The notes below the pieces were generated by a model. That model was given only the letters and a program-made list of their open reading frames with translations, ran no database searches and was not told the origin of the DNA. A stretch of DNA of 64,000 bases from Candidatus Peregrinibacteria bacterium (GTDB taxonomy: Bacteria > Patescibacteriota > Gracilibacteria > UBA1369 > JACRIC01), in the NCBI GenBank assembly GCA_016188705.1, contig JACPHH010000028.1:1-64000 (forward strand). Reading direction: 5' to 3'. Position 1 is the first letter of the stretch. Each line of letters starts with the position of its first letter. A program made the position numbers and the translations under genes. Shown piece by piece: positions 3,354 to 61,400 of this stretch.

Positions 3354-3795
3354 TGGTGGAGATGCCGGGAGTCGAACCCGGGTCCAAAGACGAAGAAGAA
3401 AAACCTCTACAATCATAGTTTGCTTTCATTGAGCCATTAAAAGATAAAAAACAAACGAAAAACCTTATAATGGCAAGTTCAAAATTTTCGTGATTTTGAC
3501 CGAACTTACAAATCAAAATCCTTATCCTGAAAAGTTACACCGTAAAGAAATTATCAGGAATCATTTCCCACGATGCTCGTCAGCCTCCATTAAGGGAGGC
3601 TGAAACGAGAAAAACCTTAGGCAAGAACTGGCACGGGAGCAAGAGCCTTGAGAGCCCTTACTGTTGCCATCTCACCAAAAGTTCGCAGATTTTCTGCACT
3701 TAATGCGCGCTGGACGGATTAAAGGTGGGACAGCGCGACCACCTGATTGCCATCTTTCCTCAAAAACATCTCTGTCGAAGCCAAATTACATCCCC
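3354..3795 (-). ncRNA. ssrA: tmRNA (ssrA)
   Basis: Reverse strand begins GGGGATGTAATTTGGCTTCGACAG and ends GGACCCGGGTTCGACTCCCGGCATCTCCACCA; tag ORF GCA ACA GTA AGG ... GCC TAA at 3617-3667. Confidence 0.95.
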
Positions 3796-3842
3796 ATGTG
3801 TCAAAGAGCAAAAAAAGTATAGCAATAAAACCTTATTTGTAA

Positions 3843-4006
3843 AGGAACCTCTGAAAAACGTAACTTCGTAACGAAATTTTACCATGTTGAGCGAAAAATG
3901 TGAAAAGCGACAAAGACGTATCAGATAAGATACGTTGAGGAGCTTTGAACATTTTGCAGCCAACATGGTAAAATTGCAGTAGATGGTAGGTTTTTCAGAG
4001 GTTCCT
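3843..4006. repeat. Family-1 nested-hairpin repeat, copy A
   Basis: 17-bp perfect terminal inverted repeat AGGAACCTCTGAAAAAC / GTTTTTCAGAGGTTCCT; inner stems AATTTTACCATGTTG/CAACATGGTAAAATT, AAAATGT/ACATTTT, ACGTATC/GATACGT. Confidence 0.9.
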
Positions 4007-4172
4007 AAAGCGCGTCATGGGTACCGATGTCATAAAAAATAAACACCGCGCCATCTTTTCTATAAAGAGCTCTTAAATCATATCCGATAAAAATAGCTCG
4101 ATATCCAAAAAGTTTTCCGCCAAGAATATGATTTTTCAGTTTTGTATCAAAAGGATTACGCTCAAATAAAAA
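4005..4172 (-). pseudogene. 5'-truncated RelE/YafQ-type toxin remnant
   Basis: Manual translation FLFERNPFDTKLKNHILGGKLFGYRAIFIGYDLRALYRKDGAVFIFYDIGTHDAL*. Confidence 0.75.
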
Positions 4173-16295: not shown

Positions 16296-16760
16296 ATGGC
16301 CATTCTTTCAATGCAAACAGGCGCGGATAATCCGATTCTGCGAAAAAAATCGACAGAGGTAAAAAAAATCGATACCAAGTTGAAAAAGTTTATCGATGAC
16401 ATGAAAGATACGCTTGTGTCGCACGAAGGCATTGGACTTGCGGCTCCTCAGGTAGGGAAAAATATCCGCGTGGTTCTCGTTTGTCTCAATCCGAAAACAA
16501 AAAACGAAAATACGGTTGTCATGATCAATCCTGAAATAACGTATAAATCTGAAGAAATGTATGAGGCGGAAGAGGGTTGTTTAAGTCTTCCTGGAATATA
16601 TTTGCAGGTTTTGCGTTCTAAGGAAATTATTGTCGATTTTCAATCTTTAAAAAAACAAAAACAAACACTTCGCCTCGAAGGTATAAATGCTCGCATTGTC
16701 CAGCATGAAGTCGATCACGTTAACGGCATTCTTATCGTGGACTACCATTTGAACGCATAG
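16296..16760 (+). CDS. def: Peptide deformylase
   Basis: GIGLAAPQVG, EGCLSLPG, QHEVDHVNG. Confidence 0.95.
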   Translation: MAILSMQTGADNPILRKKSTEVKKIDTKLKKFIDDMKDTLVSHEGIGLAAPQVGKNIRVVLVCLNPKTKNENTVVMINPEITYKSEEMYEAEEGCLSLPGIYLQVLRSKEIIVDFQSLKKQKQTLRLEGINARIVQHEVDHVNGILIVDYHLNA

Positions 16761-16838
16761 CAAAGCGTAGAGAAAATGTAGTTCCTGCCCATCTACTATT
16801 TGAATAAAAAATAACAGCAGTGGGAAAATTACGTTTTT
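16737..16838. repeat. Family-3 palindromic repeat overlapping the def 3' end
   Basis: ggactaccatttgaacgcatagcaaagcgtag closely matches ggactaccatttgagcgcatagcgaagcgtag at 30480-30511; downstream cagcagtggg matches the right-hand end of that copy. Confidence 0.8.
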
Positions 16839-26308: not shown

Positions 26309-26917
26309 ACTGTGTAAAAAAATAAAAAAGTAAGAAATAAAGCCTACAAATCTCTACGCTACGTCTAAAAAAAATATAAACGAAAAAAAACCATTTTACA
26401 AATATATTGTTCAATTTTTGGCTTATTTAAGCCTTTTGTATCAAATTCTTATTCAATCCCCTCCTCTGCTCTAAGCCAAAAAGAGGCTACAAAGTCTTTT
26501 AAAAACACCTCAATTTTTAAGCGTAAAATACCGCAAGAATAAGAAGAAAATACGAATAAATTATTTATTCCATTAAGAAGTTGAATAAAAAAAATATACA
26601 AACATGTAAAAAACAGCCTTATGAAAAGAAAAATGATCTATAAAAAAAAATGAGCGCTTTTCATTTTTTTTAAAAAAAATGAAAGAAAAATAACTTCAAC
26701 GAATAAAATCGAAAAAATGAATTTTAATGGCTTTTTTAAGCCTTAAAGACGATATTTAAAAAAGAAGGTTGTTAAAATTGATTATCGCGAAATAAAAAAA
26801 GAAAAAACGCAAGACATTTTTTAATAACTGCTCATGATTTTTTTTTAAGCAGAGGGAAAGACATATAGGAACTCCCGCAAAATTTCGTTACGAAAATGAG
26901 GTTTTGTGAGAATTCCT

Positions 26918-27003
26918 GCCATTTGAGCGCGTGGCAAAGCATAGCGAAAATGAAGTTCCCGCCGCATTTCTACTACAATTTGAACGCAGAGCGAAACGTG
27001 GCG
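26918..27003. repeat. Family-3 repeat, two adjacent half copies
   Basis: catttgagcgcgtggcaaagcatagcgaaaatgaagttcccgcc and aatttgaacgcagagcgaaacgtggcgtagcgaaaat. Confidence 0.7.
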
Positions 27004-30446: not shown

Positions 30447-30563
30447 AATCGCCCACTGTTTTTTTTTAAAAAGAGGGCGGGGACTACCATTTGAGCGCAT
30501 AGCGAAGCGTAGCGAGAATGGAGTTCCCGCCCTCTTTTATCTGAACAAAAAGCAACAGAGGTG
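30447..30563. repeat. Family-3 palindromic repeat, most complete copy
   Basis: Outer arms CGCCCACTGTT / AACAGAGGTGGGC; inner arms AAAAGAGGGCGGGGACT / AGTTCCCGCCCTCTTTT around ACCATTTGAGCGCATAGCGAAGCGTAGCGAGAATGG. Confidence 0.85.
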
Positions 30564-30928: not shown

Positions 30929-31012
30929 ATTTATAAGGGCTTTTTTTACTTTTGTTTATAGATTTATGCTCTTTGGAATAATTATTCTTATTTTAAAAAT
31001 TGCATGATAACA

Positions 31013-32140
31013 CTACCGAGTATAAAGCCTTCGAATTTCTTCCGCCATGATTTTCCATGAAAAATCTTTCACGCGAATTTTCCCGCGTTCTTTTAATGTT
31101 GAAAGGAGTTTTTCATTTTCCAGCATATAATGAATAGTATTGGCAATATCACGATAGTTATCCGGATTAAAAAAACGCGCGTTTCCATCTCCTGCAATTT
31201 CCGGCAAGCAGGAACGATTTGAAGAGGCGACTGGGGTGCCACAGGCAAAAGCTTCAAGAATATTGAGACCAAAGCCTTCATAAAAAGAAGGCTGAACGTA
31301 AATTGCGGCAGCATTGTAAAGCTGTACGAGGTTTTTTTCGTTGACGAGCCCGGGAAATCGAACAAAATTTTCAAGAGAAAGTTCGCGTACAGTGGCTTTG
31401 ACTTCGGGATAAGCCGAATCTTCTCGTCCGGTAAGAACGAGTAAAATGTCGTGATGATAGCTTGTTCGAAGGCTGTGAAAAGCCCGAATGAGATTGACAA
31501 GATTTTTATGATTTCTCCAAACTCCTGCGTAGAAAAGAAAAGGCTTATTGAGGTCATATTTTGATCGCGCTTCTTGCGCGTCTTTTTCAGGAAGCATTCG
31601 AAATTCCTCTCCAACTCCTTCGTAAATAATGCGTATTTTGCTTTCAGGAAGCCGAAAAAGTTTCAGAAGGTCGAGTTTGGTATTTTCTGAAACCGCGATA
31701 ATGGAGCGCGCTTTTTTTACAATGGAACTGAGAGTGAGATTATAGCCCCAGCGATGCCAGGGTTTGGTCATTTTCTTGCCGGGATAAAAGGAAAGAATGA
31801 GGTCGTGGATGGTGACAACGCAAGGTTTTTTATAAAAAATAGGCGCGTTAAAATGAGTAAAATGCATAAGATCGAGTTTCGCGTCATGAAGAAGTCGCAA
31901 AAATTTCGTCTGTTCACTGAAAGAATAATGATGGGCATTCACGTGAATTTTTGTAAAATACGGCGGTACAGCCTGAAAAAGATCATATTCGGGATCATTG
32001 AAAAAAAGAACATATTGATTTTGTTCCTCCTTCGGAAGGGTTTTTTCTATAATGCCGAGGTGCCGAACAAGCTCAAAAACATAGCGCCCGATACCCGTAA
32101 ACGAGCTTGAATACATCCGACAATCAATTCCAATGCGCAT
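31013..32140 (-). CDS. Glycosyltransferase family 4 (GT-B)
   Basis: MRIGIDCRMYSSSFTGIGRYVFEL..., VQPSFYEGFGLNILEAFACGTPVASSNRSCLPEIAGD. Confidence 0.93.
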   Translation of the reverse strand: MRIGIDCRMYSSSFTGIGRYVFELVRHLGIIEKTLPKEEQNQYVLFFNDPEYDLFQAVPPYFTKIHVNAHHYSFSEQTKFLRLLHDAKLDLMHFTHFNAPIFYKKPCVVTIHDLILSFYPGKKMTKPWHRWGYNLTLSSIVKKARSIIAVSENTKLDLLKLFRLPESKIRIIYEGVGEEFRMLPEKDAQEARSKYDLNKPFLFYAGVWRNHKNLVNLIRAFHSLRTSYHHDILLVLTGREDSAYPEVKATVRELSLENFVRFPGLVNEKNLVQLYNAAAIYVQPSFYEGFGLNILEAFACGTPVASSNRSCLPEIAGDGNARFFNPDNYRDIANTIHYMLENEKLLSTLKERGKIRVKDFSWKIMAEEIRRLYTR

Positions 32141-32261: not shown

Positions 32262-32360
32262 CAAATCATATGCCCTTTTTGATCCTGCCGAGTATTCGAG
32301 CGACAATCTCCCTCCTGCCAGCGATATGTGCTTTTATTCAAAGTAATGTGCGTATAATCT
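32262..32360. repeat. Degenerate family-2 repeat copy
   Basis: tttttgatcctgccgagtattcgagcgac...gccagcgatatgtgctttt resembles the 51154-51261 copy. Confidence 0.65.
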
Positions 32361-32475
32361 TATTTGTGAACACTGCTTAGGCATTATAAAGGAGAACTTG
32401 CGAAGAATAAAAGAGTCCGTTATCATATTTCCGCTTTCAAAACCGCTTAATCAAGTGGAAAAATAAAAATACCGT

Positions 32476-46370: not shown

Positions 46371-46612
46371 GGATCATACGGGATCATACGCTTTTTCTTT
46401 TGAAAAAAAGTACATATCGCTGGGAGGCGGGGGCTCGTCGCTCGGATACTCGGCTGGATCAAAAAGGACGAAAATTCGCTAAAAATGCTATCGGCTACGC
46501 ATTTTTTAACGCTCATTTTCGCCTCTTTTTGAAAACCAAAAACCAGCCTGCGTAACTCGCTCCGAACCCACGCCTCCCAGCATATATATTCAAAGGAAAA
46601 AGCGTATGATCC
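46371..46612. repeat. Family-2 long inverted-repeat element, copy 1
   Basis: GGATCATACGCTTTTTC...GAAAAAGCGTATGATCC termini; ggatcatacg doubled at the left edge. Confidence 0.85.
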
Positions 46613-46623
46613 ATTTTTATCTG

Positions 46624-46653
46624 AAAAAAGCCCTCTCGCTTGAGAGGGCTTTT
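46624..46653 (-). terminator. Rho-independent terminator of the 46668-50855 gene
   Basis: AAAAGCCCTCTC-AAGC-GAGAGGGCTTTT followed by Ts on the minus strand. Confidence 0.9.
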
Positions 46654-50855: not shown

Positions 50856-51153
50856 GGAAGATGAGTTAAAAATTGTATAAGTCCTCTGTAAAACATAATT
50901 TCATTATGAAATTTACAGGAGAAAGTAGATTCTCAAAGGACTTTATATATAAAAATAGAGAAAAATAAAATGATCTTCGCTTAAAATTATCCTCGCTTAT
51001 TTGATAACGCATATCCGCATAATTTGCATAGCATAGTATGGATAGTTTGATGGAAAGATAAAAAAGGACTGAGGAATGAATCCTAACATAAACGCCATGA
51101 AATAAACAAGAAAAAGATAGAAAATTGTATGTGAACACTGCCTAGTAACTGCC

Positions 51154-51261
51154 GGATCATACGCAAATTTTCGTCCTTTTTGATCCAGCCGAGTATCCGA
51201 GCGACGAGCCCCCGCCTTCCAGCGATATGTACTTTTTTTCAAAGGAAAAAGCGTATGATCC
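51154..51261. repeat. Family-2 element, copy 2 (single arm)
   Basis: GGATCATACGC...GCGTATGATCC termini; internal gatccagccgagtatccgagcgacgagcccccgcc is the reverse complement of the 46381 arm. Confidence 0.85.
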
Positions 51262-51344
51262 TAACTGCCTGCCATTTTTTATACCGTTTGATTCTTTAGT
51301 CGCGGGAGGTTACAATAAAATCTCAATAAAAAAAACATTACTCT

Positions 51345-53551: not shown

Positions 53552-53713
53552 AACATACAGAAGAAAGTTAAAATTTTTCTAAAGCAGAAATAAAATAGAC
53601 TCACTGCGCAGTGAGTTTAATAGCTTTAAGAAAAACGTGATTTCGTTACGAAGTCACGTTTTTCAGAGGCTCTTTAAGTTATCCATCTGTTTATTGTCGT
53701 AATTAAAGAAAAA

Positions 53714-56735: not shown

Positions 56736-57280
56736 AGAATAAATTGCGTTATGATTGAAATAATGCCAAGGAGGGCAAGAGTGAGCAGTACGCCTTGATA
56801 CGGCAATGTTATGCCGCGATATTCGGTAATGAATCGACTGAGTCGAGGAGTAAGAAAAATAAGAATGCCGCCAGTAAAACTGCCAACGAGAAATAAATTA
56901 ATAGGATATGTACGATTAAGAAGTGATCCATATGGCCCGCGCCAGTTAATATATATGGATGTATAGTCCGAGAGGAGCATTTTCAAGGGGAGAATAGTGG
57001 TAATCCAGGAAAACACGCCGAGAATAGCATCTTGATAAATCAAATATTTTTTTTTGATGATTCTGGCAATCCAAAGACCCATAGCCACGGCAAAAGCACC
57101 AAGAAATACTCCTATGGTCAAACCGTTGACTCCGAGCCAATAAGCGCCGAGAGTTATAAGCCCTGCCCCCGCTGTGCAAAGAGGACAGTGAGCAAAGACA
57201 GTAGCAGGAAGTAGAAAAGAGCTGAAGCCAATTCCAATGATAAAGATCCTCTGAAAAACATTCTTTCGACTGCGTTTCAT
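56732..57280 (-). CDS. Hypothetical membrane protein with exported CxxC
   Basis: MKRSRKNVFQRIFIIGIGFSSFLLPATVFAHCPLCTAGAG; the track ORF extends to 57535 only through repeat DNA. Confidence 0.75.
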   Translation of the reverse strand: MKRSRKNVFQRIFIIGIGFSSFLLPATVFAHCPLCTAGAGLITLGAYWLGVNGLTIGVFLGAFAVAMGLWIARIIKKKYLIYQDAILGVFSWITTILPLKMLLSDYTSIYINWRGPYGSLLNRTYPINLFLVGSFTGGILIFLTPRLSRFITEYRGITLPYQGVLLTLALLGIISIITQFIL

Positions 57281-57317
57281 TTTGAAAACAGTGTTTTTTA
57301 GAGGTTCAATGAGTAAA

Positions 57318-57480
57318 GGAAACCCTGATAAATATGATTTCGTTACGAAAATTGCAAAATTCGAGCGAAAACGCTGAATGACCGACGAAGCCGTATCAAA
57401 AAAAGATACGGTAAGGAGGTCTGAAGCGTTTGCAGCCGAATTTTGCAATTTGCAGTAGTAAGCATATTTATAAGGGTTTC
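57318..57480. repeat. Family-1 nested-hairpin repeat, copy B
   Basis: Inner stem AATTGCAAAATTCG/CGAATTTTGCAATT (14 bp perfect), AAACGCT/AGCGTTT, CCGTATC/GATACGG; terminal inverted repeat AAACCCTGATAAATATG. Confidence 0.92.
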
Positions 57481-57545
57481 TTAAATGAGACCGCGCGATA
57501 TTCATATTTTTTTTACTGCCAATGTAAGGTGTCAAAAGTTCAAAT

Positions 57546-58116: not shown

Positions 58117-58280
58117 GGAAACCCTGATAAATATGATTTCGTTACGAAAATTGCAAAATTCGAGCGAAAACGCTGAATGACCGACGAAGGCGTATCAAAA
58201 GAAGATACGGTGAGGAGGTCTGAAGCGTTTGCAGCCGAATTTTGCAATTTGCAGTAGTAAGCATATTTATCAGGGTTTCC
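58117..58280. repeat. Family-1 nested-hairpin repeat, copy C
   Basis: Nearly identical to copy B (about 5 differences by eye), same orientation. Confidence 0.92.
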
Positions 58281-58290
58281 TTAAATAAAA

Positions 58291-58395
58291 GAGCGTTAAA
58301 AAATGCGTATCAGATAAGATACGTAAAGGAGGAGTGACGAAGTCGTAGCCAAAATGGTAAAATTACAGTCGTTGGTACTTTTTTCAGAAGTTCCT
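58291..58395. repeat. Family-1 repeat, 5'-truncated copy D
   Basis: GCGTATCAGATAAGATACG hairpin, AAAGGAGGAGTGA, GTAGCC, right terminus cttttttcagaagttcct. Confidence 0.8.
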
Positions 58396-60676: not shown

Positions 60677-60794
60677 AGAGCCTCCGAAAAACACAATTTT
60701 GGAAACGAACTATAGAAGCCTTAAGAAAAACAAATTTTCATTACGAAATTTGCAAATTTTGTCATTGCTGTAGAAAATTTTATGTGAACACTGC

Positions 60795-61400
60795 CTAATA
60801 TATATGTCGTCCTTCGAGGGCGTTTTTAAGCGTCATTTGATCGGCATATTCAAGATCCCCGCCCATGGGAATACCGCAGGCAATTCGGCTAATTTTTATA
60901 TCGTACGGTTTGAGAAGATTATGAATATACATAGCGGTTGCTTCGCCTTCCATCGTAGGATTCGTCGCAAGAATAATTTCTTTAATAATGGGATCATTTC
61001 GTTTGAGCCTTTTTTCCAGTTGGGCGATCGTGATATCTTCAGGACCAATTCCATCAATGGGAGAAATAGCGCCATGCAACACATGGTACGTCCCTTTATA
61101 GTCGTGAGTTTTCTCAATGGCGAGAGCGTCAAGGGCTTCTTCGACAACGCAAATCGTCGATGTGTCGCGTGAAAAATCCGAACAAATAGTACAAAAAGAT
61201 TGATCCGTCAGAATGGCGCAATTTTCACAGAGAAGAATATTTTCTTTGAGGCGAAGAAGAGTTGTGCCAAGTTTTTGGTGAAGAGAATGTTGGGAACGAA
61301 GAAGATAAAAAGCCAGTCTTTGAGCGGTTTTTGTGCCAATGCCGGGAAGTTCGGAAAATTCATGAATGAGAGATTGGAGTGACTGTGGAAGAAAATCCAT
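60795..61400 (-). CDS. recR: Recombination mediator RecR
   Basis: LPGIGTKTAQRLAFYLL, four-Cys zinc motif CENCAILTDQSFCTIC, Toprim region; ORF extends to 61436. Confidence 0.95.
   Translation of the reverse strand: MDFLPQSLQSLIHEFSELPGIGTKTAQRLAFYLLRSQHSLHQKLGTTLLRLKENILLCENCAILTDQSFCTICSDFSRDTSTICVVEEALDALAIEKTHDYKGTYHVLHGAISPIDGIGPEDITIAQLEKRLKRNDPIIKEIILATNPTMEGEATAMYIHNLLKPYDIKISRIACGIPMGGDLEYADQMTLKNALEGRHIY

Follow-up and report, generated by a model that had tools for sequence, protein, structure and literature searches.

The repeat at 57318-57481 (+ strand) of the window, the whole 64,000-nt stretch of DNA analysed here, raises the question of why a small repeated sequence should change the bases of its stems and yet keep them paired. 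The original prediction took this as a sign of selection on a folded RNA, or on single-stranded DNA, rather than of a simple MITE. The element is a MITE, with terminal inverted repeats (TIRs) of IS5 type, 4-bp target duplications (TSDs) and a high copy number from recent spread, and its one nested hairpin shape is kept across distantly related bacteria though most paired bases have changed. The reading we favour, to which we give a probability of about one half, is that of a non-autonomous IS5-type MITE with a selected core folded from the + strand, preferably as RNA.

Copies in the Window and Their Fold

Three copies had been described at about 164 nt each, and they are present where they were placed, with slightly shifted ends. 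Copy A (3844-4005, +) is 162 nt long, belongs to a different subfamily from the other two and is flanked by TAAA at 3840-3843 and 4006-4009. Copy B (57318-57481, +; 164 nt), GGAAACCC...GGGTTTCT, lies between TAAA at 57314-57317 and at 57482-57485, and its core matches the covariance model at 57338-57458 with 131.9 bits. Copy C (58117-58280, +; 164 nt; TSD TCAA/TTAA) is 97.5% identical to B and of the same subfamily, so that the window by itself yields only two independent sequences. The window also contains a truncated A-type copy comprising P4 and the 3' half (58301-58395, +), a short internal-deletion derivative that has P1 and part of the P1/P2 loop without the core (57242-57309, −), and a P1-end fragment with the TTCGTAACGAAA loop (53640-53675, −). 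Copy A is inserted between the tmRNA gene (3354-3795) and mfd (TRCF), about 48 nt upstream of the tmRNA 5' end; in rickettsiae, the tmRNA and RNase P RNA genes are reported to contain Rickettsia palindromic elements (RPEs) (PMC2229807).

Copies A, B and C each form one long nested hairpin, more stable than shuffled sequence by a z of -10.3 (copy B as DNA) or -12.6 (copy A as RNA). In copy B, the outer helix P1 joins 57318-57336 to 57462-57481, which are at the same time the left and right TIRs, and encloses P2 (57349-57363 with 57437-57451), P3 (57369-57375 with 57425-57431), P3b (57378-57383 with 57418-57422) and P4 (57390-57397 with 57405-57412), all on the + strand. The pairings quoted for P1 to P4, and the loops, are correct; P3b is an extra short helix between P3 and P4 that was absent from the first description. 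On the + strand, most of the internal loops consist of tandem G.A mismatches: G.A/A.G tandems occur at the P3/P3b and P3b/P4 junctions, and again beside a C-G pair at P3b/P4, while the P1/P2 and P2/P3 borders each carry a G.A loop with a single bulged base. Retention of G.A/A.G is about 80-93% at columns 38/84, 39/83, 45/77 and 46/76, which hold the tandem mismatches, and the near-constant, strand-asymmetric loops noted earlier recur in 43-127 divergent sequences. Such G.A loops exist solely in the folded + strand, whereas the − strand would carry C.T mismatches instead, and the + strand folds more stably than the − strand in 57 of 58 copies from this genome and in 87 of 92 from relatives.

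Copy Number and Distribution

The genome is a 1.37-Mb draft of 35 contigs (94.65% completeness), the window being part of contig 33. A covariance model of the core, with P1 excluded, gave 68 matches in it, of which about 58 (about 60) are near-full-length copies, plus many fragments; the further genome-wide copies on which the original prediction depended are thus found. Two subfamilies show 90-98% identity, and terminal-repeat-like sites number about 306, compared with 41 for a reversed control pattern. The core model found copies in 14 of 59 relatives and 21 of 89 genomes of the order, and a broader model, applied with a stricter cut-off, in 23 of the 353 genomes covered for the class, the named matches being Peregrinibacteria and Gracilibacteria. 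The distribution is patchy, with 1 to about 60 copies per genome. The relatives are draft metagenome genomes in which element ends were set by an automatic rule, some of them clearly wrongly where P1 is unusual. In one relative (G034), many contigs end inside an element copy (C30, C33, C38, C88, C90 and C28 among them), and copy numbers from short-read assemblies are therefore probably underestimates. No occurrence was found in phages, plasmids or viruses, and three Pseudoalteromonas matches from a pattern scan look like chance.

Covariation of the Helices

Among 19 diverse sequences from the same genome, 97.4% of cells are paired and 22 of 38 pairs are altered on both sides, which no shuffle reaches. 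A structure-blind alignment of 43 divergent sequences has 30 of the 38 pairs altered on both sides (0 of 500 shuffles match this) and 92.8% of cells paired, compared with 31-41% after sliding the partner. The covariation and wobble tests were of our own making. The tree-aware null was an R-scape-like test in which substitutions were re-placed on a FastTree tree (127 sequences, 60 simulations); it covered the core helices and returned 15 column pairs at E<0.05, all 15 being pairs of the proposed helices. Significant covariation with more copies, which the original prediction required, is accordingly present, and it is as clear as in many accepted structured RNAs. Of the covariation claimed for all four helices, that of P2, P3/P3b and the base of P4 stands. 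Most of P4 is near-invariant, so that its support comes mainly from its base and a few families, and P1, which lay outside the tree-aware test, is paired in most copies despite very different P1 sequences.

Transposition and Terminal Repeats

Identical 4-bp repeats (TAAA, TTTA, TTAG, CTAA, ATAA and others) flank 37 of the 58 copies in this genome, most of the others matching at three of four positions; the rule permitted end shifts of up to 3 nt, and most ends land on GG...CC. For copies in relatives, identical TSDs flank 23 of 77, and 23 more match at three of four positions. TTAG, CTAA, TTAA and CTAG fit YTAR, the TSD pattern of IS5 type (PMC10359306), but TAAA, TTTA and ATAA do not. One copy (C29:64063) lies inside another repeat family, where the exact empty site is visible, with TSD TTTA.

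The TIRs of the 162-164-nt element are its P1 arms, about 20 bp at either end, and they have counterparts in intact insertion sequences of the IS5_4 family, about 1.2 kb long, that are present in the class and carry an intact transposase (one such protein, L169, scores 336 bits as NF033581 IS5_4). The TIRs of these insertion sequences are GGAACCTCTGAAAAAC (L283), GGAAGCTCTGAAAAAC (L282), GGACTCTCTGAAAAAA (L281) and GAGGCCTCTGCAAAAG (L287), of which GGAACCTCTGAAAAAC and GAGGCCTCTGCAAAAG correspond to the element's two main types of P1. The left end of L283, in G352, has a 16-nt identity with the element; the TIRs in G060, G039, G254 and G288 are close to those of the element, and G080 has the second TIR type. 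What the IS5 elements have in common with the MITE is the outer 16 nt or so, not the core. A transposase acting on a known TIR-MITE had been named as something that could account for conservation of the whole sequence; because the IS5 elements lack the core, IS5 transposition explains the ends of the element and not its structured core.

An IS5-type transposase probably moved the copies in this genome, judging from their ends, although no match to DDE_Tnp_1, DUF772 or IS5_4 was found in the draft (94.65% complete), nor any TIR pair around a transposase gene in the stretches read. Co-occurrence is weak, as two of the eight genomes with IS5_4 above cut-off carry the element. Transposition of the Y1/RAYT kind (REP, IS200/IS605) was rejected, the Y1/HUH gene (PF01797) being absent from this genome. 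Copies occur in both orientations relative to neighbouring genes, without orientation bias, and their insertion sites have no common gene neighbourhood. In other orders the core motif GAGCGAAAAA ... TTTTGCAGCC lies inside different terminal repeats, e.g., GAGCCTGTTCAGAATCTC, GGGAGTGTTCACAAATTGG and AGAACCTGTTTAATATCTT, so either the core has swapped ends or the ends have diverged beyond recognition.

Insertions within Genes

Conserved protein genes carry eight copies in their interior, four in this genome (a glycosyltransferase, PyrD, KsgA and a Radical_SAM protein by Pfam that we take from its sequence to be QueE) and four in relatives (a WbaP-like sugar transferase, UvrC, TilS and an Orn_DAP_Arg_deC protein that is presumably an NspC-like decarboxylase). 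For PyrD, KsgA, UvrC, TilS and the WbaP-like protein, Pfam domains flank the insertion on both sides. All eight insertions, counted as element plus duplication, are 165 or 168 nt long and leave the frame open, the element being read in the sense direction in some subfamilies and antisense in others; in PyrD and KsgA the insert amounts to 56 aa. An insert length divisible by three occurs in about 40% of all copies, and no member of the 162-nt A subfamily (insertion 166 nt) was found within a gene. Chance would rarely give eight of eight (p ~0.001, a rough estimate), which is what selection against frameshifts would leave. An RNA intron was considered and rejected: copies whose insert length is not a multiple of three never interrupt a gene, and splicing is neither needed nor supported. 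Three further apparent interruptions (L124, L129 and L233) are each two adjacent genes run together.

Neighbouring Repeats

The window carries other repeats of related appearance. A second, larger nested-hairpin element of about 257 nt at 46381-46637 (−), with pieces at 51163-51263 and 32274-32362, has terminal repeats GGATCATACGCTTTTTC and GAGCGA-type loops, its region folding as RNA at -144 kcal/mol on the − strand; apparently it represents a further family built in this style. A palindromic repeat of about 60 nt, GGGCGGGAACT...AGTCCCCGCCC, is found at 16736-16790, 26910-26964 and 30478-30532, and at six further sites in the genome (e.g., C2:9745, C12:34279 and C22:59602) it hosts the element studied here. 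Repeats ending in AGTGTTCACA (TAGGCAGTGTTCACATA) occur at 51118-51147, 60771-60800, 30993-31022 and 32353-32382 and resemble the terminal repeats of hairpin elements in G325. Elsewhere in the genome, members of a 216-217-nt subfamily carry an additional hairpin, GGGGTCCCCGTTCTGG..., inserted beside P4 (C29:64063, C9:5873, C12:30742 and C17:14041).

What the Core Is For

The interior of an ordinary MITE is free to drift, and conservation is not expected there. Since this one keeps its structure, the question becomes what the folded strand does for the transposon. In the mechanism that best fits the data, an IS5-family DDE transposase supplied in trans would cut at the outer 16 bp or so of P1, and insertion would generate the 4-bp AT-rich target duplication. 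The core, i.e., P2, P3, P3b and P4 with their tandem-G.A and G.A-plus-bulge loops, would be held by selection as a folded + strand, presumably because the fold, and not the base sequence of the stems, serves the element. From the favoured strand and the covariation we infer that selection acts on this folded + strand, as RNA or as single-stranded DNA; to that extent the original prediction is borne out. Our preference for RNA as the active form is only a guess, as is anything said of what it binds; in this view a structured RNA within a transcript crossing the element would act in cis, helping the element either to spread or to be tolerated by the host.

An RNA helix under selection normally admits G.U but not A.C. 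The ratio of G.U to A.C is 33:5 in tRNAs from the same genomes, which became the RNA wobble control after SRP RNA proved undetectable in 40 genomes. (The SRP RNA model RF00169 had no match in 40 relatives of the order, though most control genomes match; SRP RNA may be absent from these relatives or strongly divergent.) In P2, P3 and P3b of the element the ratio is 46:33 for 50 sequence clusters and 9:8 for multi-copy clusters, and recent copies give 42:18, or 26:15 when counted as distinct changes, while the base of P4 has 53 G.U to 6 A.C. Near-equal values outside P4 are not the usual outcome of RNA selection, and the occurrence of copies in both orientations to neighbouring genes likewise counts against the favoured reading. 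The decay of dead copies adds G.U and A.C equally, which blurs the test; with G.U so scarce, we place RNA only slightly ahead of single-stranded DNA, without conviction.

It is possible, at well below even odds, that the same MITE is selected as single-stranded DNA, the + strand folding during replication, transposition or ssDNA uptake and its tandem-G.A hairpin being recognised by a protein, either the transposase or a host factor. Stems that are almost only Watson-Crick, with G.T barely preferred over A.C, would suit this, as would the stability of tandem G.A in DNA hairpins and the example of integron attC sites, which keep a structure while their stems are free in sequence. The TSDs and IS5 TIRs, however, indicate double-strand DDE transposition, the genome has no Y1 (HUH) transposase, and the base of P4 is rich in G.U. 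The low preference for G.U would also suit an ordinary IS5 MITE in which changes on both arms arose by template switching from one palindrome arm to the other, without selection on the fold. Long palindromes are prone to such quasi-palindrome correction, and P1 arms match well even in copies whose P1 sequence resembles no known TIR. Yet template switching would erase the asymmetric loops as well, and the G.A and bulge positions have stayed the same through a turnover of the stems across families and orders, so that we consider this explanation improbable.

A vertically inherited family of non-coding RNA genes is the least credible of the readings, and the TSDs already go far towards refuting it. 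In its favour, some genomes (G076 and G023) have a single divergent copy whose structure is intact, but a conserved gene neighbourhood is lacking, and copy number and distribution are too uneven. Nor does the element match a known RNA family: Rfam 15 at gathering score matched only tmRNA and tRNA in the window, with nothing credible at E up to 10. For IscB/HEARO, IS110 and other RNA-guided elements, the same Rfam comparison gave no match.

For the favoured structured MITE, an indication that the core matters comes from derivatives of 33-119 nt that have both ends but no core, some with a duplication. In about one quarter of the genome, where they were sought, nearly all differ from one another (two may have a common origin). 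Core-bearing elements have multiplied and core-less ones are nearly all singletons, which suggests that the core helps spreading. A bolder view, which we hold to be rather unlikely, is that Patescibacteria harbour a selfish structured nucleic acid spread through the whole class. This would be one folded module, recognised by its shape, that has been combined with several different sets of transposon ends and depends on its fold for spreading, the folded RNA or single-stranded DNA being a true working part of transposition.

Comparison with Known Systems

With IS5-derived MITEs, the element has in common the IS5-type TIRs, the 4-bp TSDs, the lack of autonomy and the high copy number, but its nested structure persists from one genus, family or order to another, even where the TIRs are different. 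Integron attC sites likewise have stems that are free in sequence, with conserved structure and extrahelical bases, and are strand-specific; unlike them, the element has TSDs, and by eye no core sites were seen and no cassette array was noticed. We know of no conserved internal-loop code for the Correia/NEMIS elements of Neisseria, which differ from the element in TIR and target. They too are small TIR elements with long stem-loop transcripts, for which a role at the RNA level via RNase III has been proposed (PMC2229807). REP/REPIN sequences, which depend on RAYT (Y1), are also palindromic hairpins of high copy number and have a GTAG-like loop tetranucleotide in common with the element (PMC3733652, PMC3116915), whereas the element has TSDs, a length of 162-164 nt and no Y1 transposase in its genome.

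A close likeness, drawn from descriptions, is to the RPEs, which are likewise palindromic stem-loops of 100-170 nt found both between genes and in frame within conserved protein genes. There they insert a peptide of about 50 aa, and they also occur in Wolbachia (PMC2229807, PMC10969869); their TSD is listed as '?' (PMC2229807). The present element differs in having clear 4-bp TSDs, a matching IS family and a covarying core, and in belonging to another phylum, the CPR/Patescibacteria, whose genomes are very small. For in-frame palindromes of the RPE kind, the mover of which has long been unsettled in Rickettsia, there is now a candidate transposase family together with precise TSDs.
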